Positions 1-13,172 of a stretch of 54,020 nt of DNA are shown one piece after another. Within the stretch, counting starts at the first letter, position 1. Each line of letters begins with the position of its first letter. A program made the position numbers and the translations under genes. The stretch is from assembly GCA_024685995.1 (NCBI GenBank), contig JAIBDY010000011.1, positions 1 through 54,020 of the forward strand, read 5' to 3'. The DNA is from Piscirickettsiaceae bacterium. Lineage in GTDB: Bacteria; Pseudomonadota; Gammaproteobacteria; Nitrosococcales; Methylophagaceae. The notes beneath the pieces were generated by a model. That model did not search any database. It worked only from the letters and a program-made list of their open reading frames with translations, and was not told where the DNA came from.

Positions 1-721
1 AGGGCATTGCGTCCGTCTAAGACAAGGTCGGATGGAAGACAATACGGTATTTTCTAAAGATCCCGTTGCTGTTGCAAAACAGTGGGTCGATGCGGGCGCA
101 AAGCGTCTTCATATCGTTGATCTTGATGGCGCATTTGCTGGTAAACCCGTCAATGCTGGAGTCATTCATCAAATTTGTAGCACCTTTCCAGAGCTTGACG
201 TTCAAATAGGCGGTGGTATTCGCGATGAAGATACCATTCAAACGTATTTGGAAGCCGGTGTTCGATATACCATTATTGGTACCAAAGCGATAAATGCGCC
301 TCACTTCGTGGGCGATGTGTGCGCCGAATTCCCGGGCCACATTATTGTCGGTTTGGACGCCAAAGATGGGAAGGTCGCTATCGATGGTTGGTCAAAACTA
401 TCGCACCATGATGTCACAGATATTGCTAAACAGTTCGAACAAGATGGCGTTGAAGCCATTGTGTATACCGATATTAGTCGAGATGGCATGATGCAGGGTG
501 TCAACCTAGAATCGACTCGTAATTTAGCCCGCGCTATCAATATCCCCGTTATCGCCTCGGGTGGTGTCACAGACTATGATGATATTAAAGCCTTATGCCA
601 TTATGAAAGCGAAGGAGTCATGGGTGCTATTGTCGGCCGAGCTATCTATGAGGGCACGATCGATTTAGCAAAGGGCCAAGCGTTAGCCGATCGACTCAAC
701 CCCCCTCAGCAGTTCCTATAA
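1..721 (+). CDS. hisA: HisA, ProFAR isomerase (5' end outside window)
   Basis: Phosphoribosylformimino-5-aminoimidazole carboxamide ribotide isomerase, a TIM-barrel enzyme of histidine synthesis in the cytoplasm. The reading frame is already open at base 2, and its first residues ([11 protein letters not shown]) match the conserved N-terminal stretch of HisA. The ATG at 32 is therefore an internal methionine, and roughly the first dozen residues lie to the left of the window. Family motifs are visible: [38 protein letters not shown] and VIASGGV. HisF follows after 10 bases, as in most proteobacterial his operons, and the promoter must lie outside. The paralogous barrel halves (IGGGIR, ASGGV) are shared with HisF, but the isomerase-type DISRDGM distinguishes it. 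Confidence 0.97.
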
Positions 722-731
722 AGGCTATCTT

Positions 732-1505
732 ATGGCTCTGGCTAAACGTATTATCCCCTGCCTTGATGTTGATAACGGGCGTGTTGTTAAAGGTGTGCAA
801 TTTGTCAATATTCGTGATGCTGGCGACCCGGTCGAGATTGCCAAACGCTATGATCAGCAAGGTGCCGATGAAATTACATTTTTAGACATCACGGCGACCC
901 ACCACGATCGCGACACGATTGTCCATGTAGTCGAGGCCGTTGCAAGCCAAGTCTTTATCCCACTCACGGTGGGTGGTGGCATTCGTAAACTAGAAGATAT
1001 TCGCCGCATGCTCAATGCTGGCGCAGATAAAGTTGGCATTAATTCGGCCGCGATTACCAATCCAGAGTTTGTCCGCGAAGCAGCTGAAAAGTTTGGCTCG
1101 CAATGTATTGTGGTCGCCATTGATGCAAAGCGGGTCTCAGCAGAAGGTGAAACCGATGCTTGGGAAATTTTCACCCATGGTGGTCGTAAACCGACGGGAA
1201 TTGATGCAATTGAATGGGCAAAAAAAATGGTGTCGTACGGTGCCGGTGAAATTTTATTGACCAGCATGGATCGTGATGGCACAAAGTCAGGCTTTGATCT
1301 CGCATTAACCCGCGCGGTCAGTCAAGCGGTAAACGTGCCCGTCATCGCATCAGGTGGTGTGGGAGAACTACAAGATTTAACTGATGGCGTAAAACTAGGT
1401 GAAGCTGATGCCGTCTTGGCTGCCAGCATTTTTCATTTTGGTGAACACACAGTAGGCGAGGCCAAAGCCCATATGGCTAGCCAAGGTGTCGAGGTTCGTT
1501 TGTAA
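732..1505 (+). CDS. hisF: HisF, imidazole glycerol phosphate synthase cyclase subunit
   Basis: A 257-residue TIM-barrel cyclase that, with the glutaminase HisH (not in this window), makes imidazole glycerol phosphate and AICAR. It begins [21 protein letters not shown], the family signature, with the catalytic aspartate in CLDVD near residue 11 and the second one in [12 protein letters not shown] near residue 180. TVGGGIR and ASGGVGE form the phosphate-binding loops. Its length equals the family norm. The stop codon overlaps the start of hisI (TAATG), indicating translational coupling. No internal oddities were seen. Confidence 0.98.
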
Positions 1506-1885
1506 TGGACTGGCTAGCGAAAATAAAATGGAATGATGATGGTTTGGTTCCAGTGATTACACAGGAGCATGAGACTCAACAAGTCTTAACCTTAGCATGG
1601 ATGAATGACGAAGCATTACGACTCACAGCTGAAACAGGCCATGCCGTATACTGGTCTCGTTCTCGTCAAAAACTTTGGCATAAAGGTGAACAATCAGGTC
1701 ATCAACAACAAATCAAGTCCATCCGACTCGATTGCGATCAGGATGCCGTGTTATTAGAAGTCGTTCAACTTGGTGGTATCGCTTGTCATACTGGCCGCCA
1801 TCATTGCTTCTATCAGCGTCTGGAAAATGGTCAATGGCTGACGACTGAGCCAGTATTAAAAGACCCTAAAGAGATATACTCATGA
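1505..1885 (+). CDS. hisI: HisI, phosphoribosyl-AMP cyclohydrolase
   Basis: A 126-residue zinc enzyme that opens the purine ring of phosphoribosyl-AMP in histidine synthesis. Conserved segments are LAWMNDEAL near residue 30, [14 protein letters not shown] near 50, DCDQDAVLL near 77 and [10 protein letters not shown] near 97. The cysteines and histidines of the last two segments bind metal. It is a stand-alone HisI, not the HisIE fusion of enterics. hisE is a separate gene that overlaps it by four bases, the arrangement usual in Pseudomonas and relatives. Confidence 0.97.
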
Positions 1886-2202
1886 CTGATGTTTTAGCAC
1901 AATTAGCGACCGTACTTGAAGCTCGCAAACAAGCCGATGCAGGGGAGTCTTATGTCGCTAGTTTGTATCAATCTGGCACCGATAAAATCCTGAAAAAGCT
2001 TGGCGAAGAAGCGACAGAAATCGTGATTGCCGGCAAAGGGGGTGACCGAGATGAGATTATCTATGAAACCGCTGATTTATGGTTCCACAGTATGGTGCTA
2101 TTGGCACACAATAACATCGATTACCAGCTGGTTTTAGAAGAGCTTGATCGCCGTTTTGGCTTATCTGGCTTGACGGAAAAAGCCAATAGGACAAAATCGT
2201 GA
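1882..2202 (+). CDS. hisE: HisE, phosphoribosyl-ATP pyrophosphatase
   Basis: A 106-residue all-helical MazG-like hydrolase that removes pyrophosphate from phosphoribosyl-ATP, the second step of histidine synthesis. The metal-binding motif [13 protein letters not shown] is near residues 40-52, and [13 protein letters not shown] follows near 66-78. Its start overlaps the hisI stop (ATGA), and its own stop overlaps the GTG start of the HIT gene (GTGA). The whole block from hisA to the HIT gene therefore appears to be one coupled transcript. Confidence 0.97.
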
Positions 2203-2537
2203 CTGATTGCTTGTTTTGTAAGATCGTTGCCGGCGACATTCCTTCGGATAAGGTCTATGAAGACGATCAAATCCTCGTCTTTAAGGATATAAACCCGCGA
2301 GCAGCTGTCCATTTATTAGCGATACCCAAAATTCATCTTGATAGTCTTGATGAATTGACAAATGAGCATCAAATGCTCATAGGGCATATAATGTTGCAAT
2401 TACCCCAGTTGGCGCGCTCACAAGGTCTCAATAATGGCTTTAGAACTATTATTAACACAGGACCTGATGGCGGCCAAGAAGTAGGGCATTTACATCTACA
2501 CATTTTGGGCGGCGAAGGCTTGTCCAGTTTTAATTAG
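2199..2537 (+). CDS. hinT: HIT-family purine nucleoside phosphoramidase (HinT type)
   Basis: A 112-residue histidine-triad protein. [13 protein letters not shown] at the N-terminus is typical of HinT proteins, and the catalytic triad HLHLHILGG lies near residues 98-106. HinT enzymes hydrolyse AMP-lysine and other purine phosphoramidates. It starts with GTG at 2199, overlapping the hisE stop, and tatA follows 9 bases after its stop. A HIT gene between his and tat genes recurs in gammaproteobacteria and does not itself imply a role in histidine synthesis. Confidence 0.93.
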
Positions 2538-2546
2538 GAGAGCATC

Positions 2547-2786
2547 ATGGGTTTGGGCGGTATCAGTATTTGGCAATTAATCATTGTCCTAGCGATTGTC
2601 ATCCTTTTATTTGGTACGAAAAAATTACGCTCTATGGGCGGTGATTTAGGTAGCGCAATTAAAAGTTTCAAACAATCTGTTCGTGAAGGCGAAGACGACG
2701 TCAATAATAAAGAAGACGCTACCCTTCACCATACCAGTAGCGAGTCACACACACAGCATTCTGAAAAAGATAAACATACGAGTTAA
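2547..2786 (+). CDS. tatA: TatA, twin-arginine translocase pore subunit
   Basis: A 79-residue protein with one N-terminal membrane helix ([17 protein letters not shown], residues about 7-23). The hinge [14 protein letters not shown] and an amphipathic helix [13 protein letters not shown] follow, then a polar acidic/histidine-rich tail. The FG-T-KLR hinge and the F in KSFKQ are TatA/E hallmarks. TatA multimers form the channel by which folded cofactor-bearing proteins cross the inner membrane. AGGAGAGCATC precedes the ATG as a good ribosome site. The gap to tatB is unusually wide (112 bases) but shows no terminator. Confidence 0.96.
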
Positions 2787-2898
2787 TGGTTGGTTTATTA
2801 GCTTACCCTGCTTTATAACGCTGAATCACTGATCATGACTTTGTTGTCATTCACGAGTGGTATTGCTTGGTTAGCTTAATAGGCACAGAAATATAGAC

Positions 2899-3228
2899 AT
2901 GTTTGATATTGGATTTTGGGAATTATTATTAATCGCAGTGGTCGCGCTGGTCGTTGTTGGACCGGAGCGTATGCCGCGGCTTATCCGTGTCACCGGTTTA
3001 TGGATTGGGCGTGCTACGGCGTCAATACAGTCCGTTCGTAACGAAATTTCGCGTGAACTCCGTGCTGAAGACCTAAGAAAAGCCATATCGGATCAAGAAG
3101 GCACGCCAGCTGTCCCTCGTTATGTTATACCTGATGAAATGGATACCTCAGAATCGCCTTCAGATGCTGTTAAACCAAGCCCCACGCAGGCAACAGAAAT
3201 CGATAAGGAAAAAAATGGCAACGGATGA
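2899..3228 (+). CDS. tatB: TatB, twin-arginine translocase receptor subunit
   Basis: A 109-residue protein beginning MFDIGFWELLLIAVVALVVV, with the conserved polar residue at position 8 (E) of TatB followed by GPERMPRLIR. One membrane helix is followed by an amphipathic helix and a low-complexity tail rich in Pro, Ser and acidic residues. With TatC it forms the receptor for twin-arginine signal peptides. Its 3' end overlaps the proposed tatC start by 14 bases. Confidence 0.95.
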   Translation: MFDIGFWELLLIAVVALVVVGPERMPRLIRVTGLWIGRATASIQSVRNEISRELRAEDLRKAISDQEGTPAVPRYVIPDEMDTSESPSDAVKPSPTQATEIDKEKNGNG

Positions 3229-4786: not shown

Positions 4787-5023
4787 ATGTCGCTTAAACA
4801 ACAATTGGTAGATGAAATTGAAGTCTTGTTACGTTATAACCTAGACACAACGCTTGAAGGCATAAAAGTCCACCACGATGCTCCTCCCGCCATGCGTGAC
4901 GCAACACAACGCTTATTTGTCAAAGGCCTTGTCAGCCAAAAAGATGGTGGTTATTTAACCGATTTAGGTCATGAAGCTGCTGAACATACACAAGCGGCGT
5001 TGGCTATTTTAAGCTCTAAATAG
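4787..5023 (+). CDS. TIGR02647-family small putative DNA-binding protein
   Basis: A 78-residue protein resembling the gammaproteobacterial TIGR02647 family (Pseudomonas, Vibrio and relatives). Features are the LVDEIEVLLRYNL start and a winged-helix-like block MRDATQRLFVKGLVSQKDGGYLTDLG with residues about 38-63. The length matches the family. It has no signal peptide or membrane helix. GGAG lies nine bases before the ATG. The last 15 bases overlap the 3' end of folA on the opposite strand. The molecular role is not established; DNA binding is inferred from the fold-like pattern. Confidence 0.75.
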   Translation: MSLKQQLVDEIEVLLRYNLDTTLEGIKVHHDAPPAMRDATQRLFVKGLVSQKDGGYLTDLGHEAAEHTQAALAILSSK

Positions 5024-5512
5024 ATTTTTATCCCGTTCATAAACGATAAAACTATAGGGATATTCGTTCTTTTCGTCGGCAAGGTGCGATTGTCTGCTCA
5101 CCTCATGCCATTGACCTTTATCCCAATCTGGAAACCAAGTATCGCCTTCTAGGCTCGCGTGAACTTGCGTTAAATAAATGATATCTGCAAGAGGTAAGCA
5201 TTGCTTATAAAGAGAAGCCCCCCCCATGACCATCACTTCTAATGCACCTTCACAGGCATCGAGTGCTTGTTGAATTGAGTGCGTTACGATACAACCCTGC
5301 GCTCGATAATCTTGATCGCTGGTCAGGATGATATTTTTTCTACCGGGTAAAGGACGACCAATGGACTCGTGGGTAAGACGCCCCATAATTAATGGTTTTC
5401 CCATTGTTACTTTGCGAAAATATTGTAAATCAGCTGACAACTTCCAAGGTAAATCATTCTCTTTACCAATCAGGCCACGCTCATCTGTCGCCACAATTAC
5501 CGCTAATTTCAT
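5009..5512 (-). CDS. folA: Dihydrofolate reductase
   Basis: A 167-residue enzyme that reduces dihydrofolate to tetrahydrofolate with NADPH. The start is the ATG at 5512 (MKLAVIVATDERGLIG) with AGGG upstream; a TTG two codons earlier is less likely. Diagnostic segments are GLIGKENDLPWKLSADLQYF with the catalytic Asp after the family WxLxxD pattern near residue 27, MGRLTHESIGRPLPGRKNIIL near 42-62 and VMGGASLYKQ near 96. The usual GRKTYES is GRLTHES here, a tolerated change. The gene reads away from the origin-like gap, and its end overlaps the neighbouring convergent gene by 15 bases. Confidence 0.95.
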   Translation of the reverse strand: MKLAVIVATDERGLIGKENDLPWKLSADLQYFRKVTMGKPLIMGRLTHESIGRPLPGRKNIILTSDQDYRAQGCIVTHSIQQALDACEGALEVMVMGGASLYKQCLPLADIIYLTQVHASLEGDTWFPDWDKGQWHEVSRQSHLADEKNEYPYSFIVYERDKNLFRA

Positions 5513-5817
5513 ATTCAAACCCTATTCATTTCTAGAAAATGAATACTACCAGATCCCCTTTTAAAGAGCCCAAATGATGAGATGATAAGTTATGTATAAA
5601 CAGTCTGATAAAACAAAGGAAAAGCTGTGGATAAGTTACCCTGTGGATAAGTGATCTCTTTATCCACAGCTATTACCCTAGTTTGATGATCAATTATCAA
5701 CAAGCAGATTAATTTTAAATCATTGAATATTAATCATAAAATCAGCTTATCCAGTTACTAACAGAGTCTAATCATTAACATCTTTTATCTTTTAAATAAT
5801 ATATTTATAGTGATAGC
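5513..5817. other. Origin-like AT-rich gap with DnaA-box cluster (candidate oriC)
   Basis: This gap between divergent folA and priA contains three perfect 9-mer DnaA boxes: TGTGGATAA at 5626-5634, TGTGGATAA at 5642-5650 and TTATCCACA at 5660-5668. One-mismatch boxes lie at 5591-5599 (TATGTATAA) and 5694-5702 (TTATCAACA). To the right (5701-5817) is a very AT-rich stretch with TTTTATCTTTTAAATAATATA, suitable as an unwinding element. GATC occurs three times. The third-position G/C bias of genes changes sign at this gap (see findings). Together these suggest the chromosomal replication origin. The alternative is a DnaA-controlled promoter for priA or a DnaA-titration site. Confidence 0.6.
5626..5668. 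promoter_or_regulatory. Three perfect DnaA boxes
   Basis: The boxes are at 5626-5634 and 5642-5650 (same orientation, 16 bases start to start) and 5660-5668 (opposite orientation). All match the E. coli R1-type consensus TTATCCACA exactly. Confidence 0.85.
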
Positions 5818-8004
5818 ATGCCAGTTATTCTAAAAATTGCAGTACCTTGCCCACTCAGACAGACTTTTGATTACCTACCAGATCAATCAAAAACACAATG
5901 GCAACGAGGTCTTCGTGTTAAGGTACCTTTCGGTCATCGAGACCTCGTTGGCATTATTGTCGCTATTGAGCACGTTGAAGATTCAACAAAGCTTGCAAGT
6001 TTAAAAACAATTATTGCCTGTATCGATAAAGGCCCATTACTGCCAAAAGCCATATTCGATTTAATACAATGGAGCAGCGATTATTATCACCACCCTATTG
6101 GAGATTGCTTTCAAGTTGCCCTGCCTAAAAAAATACGTTTAGGAGACCCAGCAACACTACAAACCGATACATATTGGTCTTTATGCCAAGAAAATAGATC
6201 GACAGCAGCCTTAGGTAAAAAACAACAAGCCGTCATAGTGTTATTGCAACAACACAATATGGCGATGTCTCAAACAATGATTACGCAAGCGATAGGGAAT
6301 CATAGTGATGCTTTAAAGCGATTGGAAAATAAAGGCTTGGTAGAACAACAGAACCGGGTTAAAAAGCCAGAGATTAATTTAAAGATTAAGGCGCTTAAAA
6401 CTTTAAATGATGAGCAGCAACATGCAGTCAATACTATTTGGCAACAACGCTCCCAATTTTCATCGACATTACTGTATGGCATTACCGGTAGTGGCAAAAC
6501 AGAAGTTTATATACAGTTAACAGCTTCAATGATCGAGGCTGATAAGCAAGTCCTGATCTTAATTCCTGAGATTGGTTTAACGGCACAGTTTGTCTCACGG
6601 TTTAAGCAACATCTAGCTGCTTGCATCGTCGTTTTTAATTCATCAATGAATGATAACGATCGACAACAAGCTTGGTTATTGGCACAAACAGGACAAGCCG
6701 ATGTCGTGATAGGTACACGGTCTGCGGTTTTTACCCCTCTCGATCGTTTGGGGTTGGTCATTATCGATGAAGAGCATGATAGCTCTTACAAGCAACAAGA
6801 TAGTTTGCGTTACCATGCCCGTAATGTCGCGTTAATAAGAGCCAAGCAAGCAACTGTACCGATTGTACTAGGCAGCGCTACCCCTTCCCTAGAAACCCTT
6901 TATCATGTTCAATCTCAGCGTTATCAATTGTTAAGTTTGACCCAACGCGCGACGGGCGCTGTTTTACCTGAAGTGGCATTGATAGATAGCCATGGGCCTA
7001 AGGCCAATAATGGCTTATCGAGTCAGCTCTACAAAGCGATAGCGCAGACCTTAGCTGACGATAATCAAGTACTCCTTTTTATCAATCAACGGGGGTATGC
7101 GCCTGTGTTGATGTGTCATGATTGTGGCTGGCAAGCAAGTTGTTCGCATTGTGATGCCAAAATGATTGTTCACCAAACGCGTTATCAACTGCGCTGTCAT
7201 CATTGTGGCTTTAACCAACCGTTACCAAAAGCATGCCCAGAATGTGACTCTAAAGATTTGGGTAGTTACGGGGTGGGTACCCAACAAATAGAGCAAAGCT
7301 TGCAACAGCTTTTTCCAACAACGCCAGTATTACGAATTGACCGGGATAGTACCCAGCGTATTGGGGCTTTTGCGAGGTTGGTCAATGATATTCAAGCTGG
7401 TGGGGCTAAAATCTTAGTAGGGACACAAATGTTAGCTAAAGGCCATGATTTTCATGATGTCACACTAGTGGGCATTTTGGATGCCGATCAGGGATTATAC
7501 AGTGCTGACTTTAGGGCAACAGAAACCTTGGCGCAATTAGTGACACAAGTCACTGGTCGTGCCGGTCGAGGACAAAAAACGGGTAAGGTATATATTCAAA
7601 CGCAGCAAATCGACCATCCTTTTTGGCAAGACTTGTTACAAGGCAGTTATCGACAGACGGCAGAGAAACTCTTGCAAGAACGTCGGCAGAGTCAGATGCC
7701 CCCAGTGGGTTCACTTTGTGTGATTAGGGCACAAGCCAAACAACAAGCGTCGTCATTACAGTTTTTAACTGAAGTGGCTGCCTTATTGAATCAACATCAA
7801 CAACAGGCGGTGTTTGTTTTGGGGCCGGTGCCAGCAGTGATGGAAAAACGTGCCGGACGATATCGAGCACAGTTATTGTTAACCACAGAGAATAGGAAAG
7901 CTTTACACCAGCTTTTGGATCATCATATTAATACTATTGCCAGCCTAAAAAGTGCTCGGTCGTGTCGTTGGTCTATCGATATTGATCCGATAGATTTACT
8001 GTGA
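5818..8004 (+). CDS. priA: PriA, primosomal replication restart helicase
   Basis: A 728-residue 3'-5' DNA helicase that reloads the replisome at collapsed forks. It has an N-terminal DNA-binding domain (MPVILKIAVPCPLRQTFDY), then a helicase core with Walker A GITGSGKTE at about 221-229 and Walker B DEEHDSSYK at about 316. An eight-cysteine zinc insert lies at about 430-478 (CHDCGW, CSHC, CHHCG, CPEC), followed by a second helicase half with GTQMLAKGHDF and VTGRAGRG. Length agrees with the family. No strong Shine-Dalgarno precedes the ATG, because the leader is part of the AT-rich origin-like gap. The stop lies one base from the end of the convergent gdh gene. Confidence 0.97.
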   Translation: MPVILKIAVPCPLRQTFDYLPDQSKTQWQRGLRVKVPFGHRDLVGIIVAIEHVEDSTKLASLKTIIACIDKGPLLPKAIFDLIQWSSDYYHHPIGDCFQVALPKKIRLGDPATLQTDTYWSLCQENRSTAALGKKQQAVIVLLQQHNMAMSQTMITQAIGNHSDALKRLENKGLVEQQNRVKKPEINLKIKALKTLNDEQQHAVNTIWQQRSQFSSTLLYGITGSGKTEVYIQLTASMIEADKQVLILIPEIGLTAQFVSRFKQHLAACIVVFNSSMNDNDRQQAWLLAQTGQADVVIGTRSAVFTPLDRLGLVIIDEEHDSSYKQQDSLRYHARNVALIRAKQATVPIVLGSATPSLETLYHVQSQRYQLLSLTQRATGAVLPEVALIDSHGPKANNGLSSQLYKAIAQTLADDNQVLLFINQRGYAPVLMCHDCGWQASCSHCDAKMIVHQTRYQLRCHHCGFNQPLPKACPECDSKDLGSYGVGTQQIEQSLQQLFPTTPVLRIDRDSTQRIGAFARLVNDIQAGGAKILVGTQMLAKGHDFHDVTLVGILDADQGLYSADFRATETLAQLVTQVTGRAGRGQKTGKVYIQTQQIDHPFWQDLLQGSYRQTAEKLLQERRQSQMPPVGSLCVIRAQAKQQASSLQFLTEVAALLNQHQQQAVFVLGPVPAVMEKRAGRYRAQLLLTTENRKALHQLLDHHINTIASLKSARSCRWSIDIDPIDLL

Positions 8005-8005
8005 G

Positions 8006-9295
8006 CTATTTTTGATTAAAATACTGTTGGGTACCTAAGGCATTGGTTGCGGCACTAATTTTATGAAGGGCGTTGATATAAGCGGCTTCGCGAAGACTAC
8101 ATTGTCGCTGCTGCGCTAAATCCCAAGCTTCAGAAAAGGCGAAAATCATTTTATCTTTGAGTTTTAAATGAATATCTTCTAGGTCCCAAGTTTGACCGCT
8201 GAGGTTTTGTACCCATTCAAAATAACTAACTGAGACCCCGCCGGCATTGGCTAATACATCGGGCACTACTTTGATGCCTTTATTAAAAATAATGTTATCA
8301 GCTTCAAACAAAATGGGTCCATTGGCAATTTCAATAATCGCTTTGGCTTTAATATTATTGGCATTATCTTTGGTAATTACGCCTTCTAAGGCGGCTGGGA
8401 TCAAAATATCAACCTCCAGTTCAAGCAAGGTTTCATTAGTGATGACGCTATGCTCGACTGTTTCACAGACAGAGCCATTGCAATAAACCGCTTTAATTTG
8501 CCTAGAACGCTGTTTTTCTTCCCACAGGCTGTCTACATCAAACCCTGATTCTGCATAAATTGCCCCTTTGGAATCACTGACCGCGATAATCTTACAACCC
8601 GCACGTTGTAATAAACGGGCGACATGATAACCGCCATTACCAAAGCCTTGTACCGCCACCGTTAATTCAGTGGGTGACCAAGTCATTTTTTTGATTAATT
8701 CAAGGGTACAGAGATAGGCCCCACGACCGGTAGCATCGTCCCGTCCAAGACTACCTCCTAATGCAATCGGTTTGCCAGTGATGACAGCAGGGCTATGACT
8801 GCGCTTGATAGATTCATATTCATCCATCATCCAACCCATAATCAAGGAATTGGTATTCACGTCGGGTGCTGGAATGTCACGCTGAGGGCCGATAAAGTCA
8901 ACGAGTGATCGCATATAAGCGCGTGATAATCGTTCTAATTCCATCGGAGATAATAATTTTGGATCGACAGTGATACCGCCTTTACTACCGCCAAAAGGTA
9001 AGCCCACTACGGCACATTTGATGGTCATCCATAAGGCTAAGGCTTGTACTTCATCAATATTGACATTGGGGTGGAAACGGATACCGCCTTTCGTTGGGCC
9101 GAGAATATTATTGTATCGACAGCGATAAGCTCGGAAATAACGTTTGGATCCGTTATCCATTCTGACCGGTAAGCAGACCGACATAATTTCTTTTGGGTGC
9201 GAAATTGCGTCGATAATTTCTGGGTTAATATCGGCTAATTTGGCCAATGATTTTACCCGTAATAAGGCATCTTCAAAGGTTGAATTCTTAGACAT
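8006..9295 (-). CDS. gdhA: Glu/Leu/Phe/Val-type glutamate dehydrogenase
   Basis: A 429-residue oxidoreductase interconverting glutamate and 2-oxoglutarate plus ammonia. The start is the ATG at 9295 (MSKNSTFED), with TTGGAG eight bases ahead; the frame extends to a TTG at 9313 with no ribosome site. The substrate pocket shows GPTKGGIRFHP and the catalytic lysine region PFGGSKGGI near residue 95-105, followed by PAPDVNT. The nucleotide fold carries VQGFGNGGYHVA near 215. C-terminal NAGGVSVSYFEW is typical of the short hexameric (bacterial/archaeal NAD or NADP) class. The symbol follows that class and cofactor use cannot be read from sequence. In methylotrophs this is a plausible ammonia-assimilation route. 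Confidence 0.92.
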   Translation of the reverse strand: MSKNSTFEDALLRVKSLAKLADINPEIIDAISHPKEIMSVCLPVRMDNGSKRYFRAYRCRYNNILGPTKGGIRFHPNVNIDEVQALALWMTIKCAVVGLPFGGSKGGITVDPKLLSPMELERLSRAYMRSLVDFIGPQRDIPAPDVNTNSLIMGWMMDEYESIKRSHSPAVITGKPIALGGSLGRDDATGRGAYLCTLELIKKMTWSPTELTVAVQGFGNGGYHVARLLQRAGCKIIAVSDSKGAIYAESGFDVDSLWEEKQRSRQIKAVYCNGSVCETVEHSVITNETLLELEVDILIPAALEGVITKDNANNIKAKAIIEIANGPILFEADNIIFNKGIKVVPDVLANAGGVSVSYFEWVQNLSGQTWDLEDIHLKLKDKMIFAFSEAWDLAQQRQCSLREAAYINALHKISAATNALGTQQYFNQK

Positions 9296-9462
9296 ACGGT
9301 TATCTCCAAGCAAAGGTAGTTTTAAACTAACACTAGCATAGGAAAACGTTTGCTTGCAGGACTAGTTGTTGGTGTGCGTTTTTGCGGGAGAATCAAAGAT
9401 GTGATCCATGCTTGGGATCAGTTAAAATGGCGTGATTACATTTTTATTAAGGCTACAACACT

Positions 9463-11897: not shown

Positions 11898-13172
11898 ATG
11901 ACCGAAAGGCTTGATGGGGGTGTTTGGCAGGAAGTGCCGAGCCCATTCTGTGGTATTGCTTCTGATGATTTAACTATCGAAGTTAGCGGTCAACATGTCC
12001 GCGTCGTTGAAAATGGTGACGCAGTGACGATTGCTGGATTTGAAACGCCGATTACTGATACCGCTCCTCAAATTAAAGGCAAAGCGGTGTCTTTATCACA
12101 AGCGGTTGAGCATATCGCTGGTTTGTTGCGAGAGAGCCAACAAACGGTGATATCTGGCTTAGCGACGGATTTAAATGGGGCGAGGGCTGCGATGGCTTTA
12201 GCCGATAAAAATCGTGCCACCGTTGACCATATGAATTCAAACGGTGCTTTTAGAAACTTACTGGTCTTACAAGATACCGGCTGGATGACAACTACCCTAG
12301 CGGAAGTAAAAAACCGCGTTGATTTATTATTGATTGTTGGCAGTGATATCGAAACCAGTTTTCCCCGTTTTTTTGAACGCATGGTTTGGAACAAAGACAA
12401 TTTATTCGACCAAGATATCGCATCACGGCAAGTAGTTTATTTAGGACGGGCGCCTTCGGGAGATGCATCGACCTCTCCTTCGGGCAAAAAAGCCGAAGTC
12501 ATGGCTTGTGATGATGCTGATTTACCCGAAGTATTATCGGTATTACGCGCGTTGGTAGCGGGTCGTAATATGCAAGCGGAACAGGTCGGCGGTATTGCGA
12601 TCAATGACTTGGCGCAATTGGCCGCTCGCTTAAAACAAGCTAAATATTCCGTCGTCACGTGGGAAGCAGGGGCATTGGACTTTGAACATGCCGAAACCTC
12701 AGTGCAAATGATGTGTGAAATGATCAAAGATTTAAATGCCGAAACACGCTGTAATGGCTTACCTTTGGGCGGTAAAGATGGTGATGTAACGGTTAACCAA
12801 GTGGCGGCATGGCAGTCTGGTTATCCGGTTCGTACCAACTTTAATCGAGGTTACCCTGATTATGATCCTTACTTGTCTGATAGCCTTCGCATGCTAGCAG
12901 AAGAGGAAGTGGATACCTTAATTTGGGTGTCGAGTTTTGATATTAAACGTACACCTCCATCAACAAACGCGACGACTATAGTGTTGGGTCGTTCAGGGAT
13001 GACATTTGAACAACAACCGGAAGTGTTTATACCGGTTGGCACGCCAGGAATAGATCATATTGGTCGGGCATTCAGAACAGATGGGGTTGTTTCAATACCG
13101 TTGAGACAATTACGAGATAGCGGTTTGCCGAGTACTTTTGAAGTATTAAGCGCTGTTGAACAAGCGCTATAG
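11898..13172 (+). CDS. fhcB: FhcB, formyltransferase/hydrolase complex subunit B
   Basis: A 424-residue homologue of formylmethanofuran dehydrogenase subunit B. In methylotrophic bacteria it is part of the Fhc complex, which releases formate from formyl-tetrahydromethanopterin rather than reducing CO2. The N-terminal region reads SPFCGIASDDL near residues 15-25. Archaeal FmdB/FwdB carries several cysteines for a 4Fe-4S cluster there, and only one remains here, as expected for the non-redox bacterial form. AVAWQSGYPVRTNFNRGYPDY-like sequence near 308-325 is a conserved patch. A GGGGGG tract lies before the ATG as ribosome site. First gene of a four-gene operon; fhcA follows after 14 bases. Confidence 0.93.
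   Translation: MTERLDGGVWQEVPSPFCGIASDDLTIEVSGQHVRVVENGDAVTIAGFETPITDTAPQIKGKAVSLSQAVEHIAGLLRESQQTVISGLATDLNGARAAMALADKNRATVDHMNSNGAFRNLLVLQDTGWMTTTLAEVKNRVDLLLIVGSDIETSFPRFFERMVWNKDNLFDQDIASRQVVYLGRAPSGDASTSPSGKKAEVMACDDADLPEVLSVLRALVAGRNMQAEQVGGIAINDLAQLAARLKQAKYSVVTWEAGALDFEHAETSVQMMCEMIKDLNAETRCNGLPLGGKDGDVTVNQVAAWQSGYPVRTNFNRGYPDYDPYLSDSLRMLAEEEVDTLIWVSSFDIKRTPPSTNATTIVLGRSGMTFEQQPEVFIPVGTPGIDHIGRAFRTDGVVSIPLRQLRDSGLPSTFEVLSAVEQAL

Follow-up and report, generated by a model that had tools for sequence, protein, structure and literature searches.

Could the short gap between folA and priA, rather than the neighbourhood of dnaA or mnmG, be the place where a bacterial chromosome begins to replicate? 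A sequence-only reading of the window, the whole 54,020-nucleotide stretch of DNA analysed here, had read this gap as the chromosomal origin of replication (oriC), or at least as a strong DnaA-binding regulatory site. On comparative evidence, the folA–priA gap is very probably the oriC of the window bacterium and of the Methylophagaceae. This assignment draws on (i) a conserved array of DnaA boxes, (ii) unstable DNA beside it, (iii) a change of GC skew at or near it in five relatives, and (iv) a dnaA–dnaN junction that is nearly gapless and carries no boxes. The skew change and the conservation of the array in the family both support the original proposal.

The folA–priA gap and its DnaA boxes

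The gap spans 305 bp (5513–5817) and is free of genes, as had been claimed: nothing lies between the ATG of folA at 5512 and that of priA at 5818. Both flanking genes read away from it. On the left is folA (5009–5512, minus strand), which encodes a dihydrofolate reductase matching Pfam DHFR_1, and on the right is priA (5818–8004, plus strand), which encodes the primosomal helicase and matches the Pfam PriA domains.

Three perfect DnaA boxes had been reported at 5626–5668 and are indeed exact copies of TTATCCACA, two of them on the minus strand (box 1, 5626–5634; box 2, 5642–5650) and the third inverted on the plus strand (box 3, 5660–5668). Of the two additional boxes described as having one mismatch, only the right-hand one stands (box 4, TTATCAACA, 5694–5702, plus strand). 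The left-hand one (TTATACATA, 5591–5599, minus strand) has two mismatches and is better regarded as a weak DnaA-box-like site, although its core, GTATAA on the plus strand, recurs in relatives. A possible weak box with two mismatches (TTATCCAGT) is found on the plus strand at 5747–5755. The gap thus contains an intergenic DnaA-box cluster such as is sought in an oriC. The window carries this one cluster, and not the two around a single gene that would mark a bipartite oriC.

Allowing at most one mismatch, the whole window contains 22 boxes against 15.5 expected, and 22 was reached in 4 of 100 shuffles; as this enrichment is mild, the weight falls on the clustering. The MAG to which the window belongs (1.84 Mb in 56 contigs, 81.6% complete) contains 21 exact boxes, compared to 12 matches of the pattern read backward, and among these 21 places three boxes occur together solely at the folA–priA gap.

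The stretch on the right, said to be very AT-rich up to 5817, proved to be so: AT content is 78.3% at 5703–5817, 70.8% in the gap, and 54.4% in the window. We computed the nearest-neighbour stacking energy over the 54-kb window. By this measure, the 100-bp stretch of lowest stability in the window (5709–5808, z of about 5) adjoins the right side of the boxes and forms a predicted DNA unwinding element, so that AT-rich DNA predicted to unwind easily lies beside the boxes as in an oriC.

A cluster of this kind could instead be a DnaA-binding site for regulation or titration, resembling datA or DARS or serving as a promoter of priA or folA under DnaA control. The boxes are immediately upstream of priA, and promoter-like matches do overlap the gap, though they barely exceed chance (4 versus 2.4 expected, standard deviation 1.4); a promoter and terminator scan of 5400–5950 returned nothing clearly exceeding chance. 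Against a regulatory site speak the presence of the least stable DNA of the window next to the boxes and the lack of a second three-box cluster in the exact-box list of the MAG. Furthermore, in 580 kb sampled from two relatives, G036 and G038, no 200-bp segment contained more than two near-boxes (37 of 40 stretches). The GC skew described below weighs against it as well, and on skew and DNA stability we reject regulation as the main function, giving this explanation a very low probability. The boxes of the predicted origin may nevertheless regulate priA in addition.

The box array in relatives

A protein search with the PriA of the window identified Methylophaga and Gammaproteobacteria MAGs as its nearest relatives; the window genus (g1) is distinct from the Methylophaga genus (g3). 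Among 36 loci upstream of priA, the array was present with the same spacing and orientation in 13 loci of the family, 11 of which have three exact boxes while two (L009, L032) have one change in the third, and in none of the 23 loci from outside the family. The gap sequence of locus L010 (Methylophaga aminisulfidivorans) is also present in genome G053. Two loci from other gammaproteobacterial MAGs (L028, L029) contain two exact DnaA boxes about 200 bp upstream of priA in a different arrangement. We do not claim them as the same system, as the arrangement differs and the skew of their short contigs is uninformative.

Family genomes were then searched with the pattern box, 7 bases, box, 9 bases, inverted box, with at most two mismatches. 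The array was found in 50 of 57 Methylophagaceae genomes, compared to 0 of 57 for the control pattern read backward, and in 34 of the 36 genomes with at least 90% completeness and at most 5% contamination. Inspection of the folA–priA gap of relatives had been suggested as a check, and every one of the 50 family genomes in which the gap could be located contains the array. Its position is conserved along with its sequence. The array is next to priA in 48 of the 50 genomes, and in the remaining two (G006, G056) the contig stops there, with folA on the opposite side. The order folA, priA, argS is kept around the array in the longer family loci, and folA adjoins the array in a fourth genus of the family, too.

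This setting bears on the possibility that the boxes derive from an integrated plasmid or another mobile replicon. DnaA boxes are known in plasmid origins, but we found no support for such a derivation here. The core-gene flanks, their preserved order, and the fact that folA adjoins the array in the fourth genus as well all argue against it and leave a mobile replicon with a vanishingly small probability.

Two further observations concern the genes next to the array. In the window, a glutamate dehydrogenase gene (8006–9313) is located between priA and argS. A glutamate dehydrogenase match also follows priA in genome G021 (locus L266), and there is none in the 13 longer family loci. In genome G036 (contig C1, 1438931–1441106), priA is split into three pieces in different frames, perhaps by assembly errors.

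None of the seven family genomes that lack the array has the 5′ end of priA assembled. Five of them (G003, G017, G029, G030, G042) gave only weak PriA matches typical of other helicases, G032 retains the last 33 PriA residues at a contig start, and in G051 a contig end truncates PriA at residue 158. G003 (1.1 Mb) is rated 100% complete and has neither the array nor a clear priA, and an origin of this type is thus not visible in every member of the family. A box pair of G003 at about 60.3 kb of contig C12, seen among 100 of 104 box places, was considered as a candidate origin. It is located inside a reading frame that we take, from its sequence, to be murE-like, and the pair was put down to chance.

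Outside the family, the array was absent from the other family in this order, hereafter the sister family (six of six genomes). In a class-wide sample searched with at most one mismatch, the array was found in 3 of 369 genomes, all three of them family members, and in 0 of the 365 genomes outside the family; in the fourth family genome of this sample, G021, the array carries two mismatches.

We aligned 48 family copies and compared them pairwise. Identity is 97% over the 27 box bases, against 54% for spacers and 53% for flanks; selecting the copies by pattern inflates the value for the boxes but not those for spacers and flanks. Box 1 is exact in 44, box 2 in all 48 and box 3 in 36 of the 48 copies, and TTATCAACA is the commonest form of box 4 (16 of 48). 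Beyond the boxes, the GTATAA core recurs on the left, and on the right there is a conserved block with ACAG followed by a TTTT stretch.

GC skew and the dnaA and mnmG loci

The sequence-only reading had named a skew minimum elsewhere, for example at dnaA, as evidence that would speak against oriC. Skew was sampled in stretches of five family genomes (G026, G033, G036, G038, G053), and in all five the sign changes at or near the gap and not at dnaA. In contiguous blocks, the cumulative minimum is at 1987 kb in G033 (array at 1987.95 kb), at 1426 kb in G036 (array at 1438.7 kb), and at 556 kb in G026, where it follows a flat stretch from 531 kb and is 27 kb off the array at 528.7 kb. In G053 (M. 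aminisulfidivorans), it is at 368 kb, with the array at 362.8 kb. The offsets between minimum and array in these four relatives are therefore 1, 5, 13 and 27 kb, and G038 gave a coarse result.

The single 3.107-Mb contig of G036 places the array at 1.4387 Mb, mnmG at 1.506 Mb and dnaA at 1.656 Mb. All 11 stretches starting below 1.42 Mb have negative skew and all nine from 1.43 Mb positive skew, one of them about zero (0.004); the stretch across 1.42–1.44 Mb has a skew of −0.009. In G038, the sign flips beside the array (0.306 Mb) and reverts, coarsely, between 1.67 and 1.95 Mb, where 1.87 Mb would be half a genome away from the array; one stretch at 0.40 Mb, about 95 kb past the array, is still negative. 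At close range the signal is less regular. The skew of the window is positive to the right of the gap and mixed to the left, with bases 1–3000 positive. Ten family loci include 10 kb of sequence on the left of the array; a clearly negative skew is seen there in L004 and L006 alone, the other eight ranging from −0.011 to +0.038.

Could the true origin nonetheless be at dnaA or mnmG, the usual places in this class, with the gap cluster being secondary? In the five sampled genomes, mnmG is only 46–69 kb from the array (G036, 67 kb; G038, 65 kb; G033, 46 kb; G026, 53 kb; G053, 69 kb), a point in favour of such an origin. The distance to dnaA is 75–217 kb (217, 146, 123, 75 and 213 kb in the same order), and the site is thus away from both genes, as had been stated. 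The array is neither adjacent to mnmG (gidA), as in origins of the E. coli type, nor within or beside an rpmH–dnaA–dnaN cluster. In the MAG of the window, dnaA is on a different contig from the array and encodes a DnaA protein comprising an N-terminal, an ATPase and a DNA-binding domain; mnmG was not found in this MAG, which is 81.6% complete.

We examined the dnaA and mnmG loci with about 1.5 kb on each side in 30 of the 57 family genomes each. Neither has a box cluster: the count of near-boxes per 200 bp never exceeds one in the 30 dnaA loci or two in the 30 mnmG loci. The dnaA–dnaN gap, stop codon included, measures only 17–74 bp in all 29 family dnaA loci examined for it (14 bp in the window genome), and a near-box occurs there in none of the 29. 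Furthermore, the skew trend passes mnmG and turns at or near the array in G026, G033, G036 and G053, and in G026 it passes dnaA, too, before turning. With no box cluster at either gene in these loci and no skew change there in the sampled genomes, we reject an origin at dnaA or mnmG as exceedingly improbable and retain the folA–priA gap as the predicted origin.

The sister family, by inference the Nitrosococcaceae, displays a different arrangement. Five of its six genomes have dnaA, and in all five the dnaA–dnaN gap is 275–874 bp long and contains 5–9 boxes with at most one mismatch, 1–3 of which are exact. The sixth, G057, is a single contig of 1.8 Mb rated 98% complete that gave no match to the DnaA ATPase family at E 0.001, neither dnaA nor hda being detected. 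In the simplest reading of this comparison with one sister family, the origin apparently moved from the dnaA–dnaN position in an ancestor of the Methylophagaceae; a move in the reverse direction is possible.

Second arrays and known origins

By analogy with characterised origins, we propose the following course of events at the gap. DnaA would bind the two strong direct boxes and the inverted third and then oligomerise toward the weaker boxes on the right. The AT-rich DNA at 5709–5808 would melt, and the replicative helicase would be loaded there, allowing two forks to depart in opposite directions.

Seven family genomes contain two arrays. In six of them (G004, G010, G011, G016, G019, G023) the second array is located between priA and argS, an arrangement also seen in loci L004, L006 and L011 (for example at 12382–12424 of L006). 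In G001 both arrays are in a single folA–priA gap, 323 bp apart (contig C1, 302817–302859 and 303140–303182). In a tree of these short copies, drawn without support values, G010, G016 and G023 group with one another both by their second and by their first copies. G011 and G019 likewise group by their first copies, and by their second copies together with that of G004. As the copies group by position, the second copy seems to predate the divergence of the species within each of the two groups; either one duplication or two may lie behind the second copies. Their boxes are 97.5% identical pairwise compared to 61–62% in spacers and flanks, with the copies again picked by pattern, and the second copy of G004 has two mismatches in the array. 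This retention of the boxes suggests that the second copies are functional, for example as part of a bipartite origin. More tentatively, and with rather less than even confidence, we envisage that the twin oriC modules around priA in part of the window genus act as a bipartite origin that loops out priA and ties its dosage and expression to initiation, and that, more widely, selection placed oriC beside priA in this family, linking initiation to replication restart.

The assignment places the origin for a family of methylotrophs and provides a contrast between a sister family with boxes at dnaA–dnaN and the Methylophagaceae, whose origin would be 75–217 kb from dnaA. Genomes with one and with two copies offer material for testing the role of a second box cluster. 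In addition, growth-rate estimates from metagenomic read depth would be off for this group if dnaA were assumed to be the origin. Among the matches listed, we found no description of a Methylophaga origin in the open literature, and a DoriC prediction may exist. Term look-ups in gammaBOriS (PMC7174414) and Ori-Finder 2022 gave neither Methylophaga nor priA in the text they covered.

The origin of E. coli, between mioC and mnmG, is likewise away from dnaA, and it shares with the folA–priA gap TTATCCACA boxes in mixed orientation and an AT-rich unwinding region at one end. The two differ in their flanking genes (mioC and mnmG versus folA and priA) and in box order and spacing. GATC sites number three at 5500–5850 of the window compared to 11 near E. 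coli oriC, according to an excerpt of PMC5859110, in which priA is also named as one of the marker genes close to the origin of Francisella. The dnaA–dnaN clusters of the sister family resemble the array in that their TTATCCACA-type boxes form groups of opposite direction, but they occupy a dnaA–dnaN gap that in the Methylophagaceae is nearly closed and has no boxes at all.

Bacillus subtilis and Epsilonproteobacteria have bipartite origins in which two box clusters flank dnaA, as outlined in part of PMC5043019. Relative to that outline, six family genomes are alike in having two clusters around one gene of about 2.2 kb, and they differ in that this gene is priA and not dnaA and that the clusters are copies of one module; the window genome has a single one. 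A cyanobacterial origin, too, is away from dnaA in the portion of PMC6323995 that describes it. Among origins away from dnaA, a kind already known, the predicted folA–priA origin has a lineage-specific place and layout.
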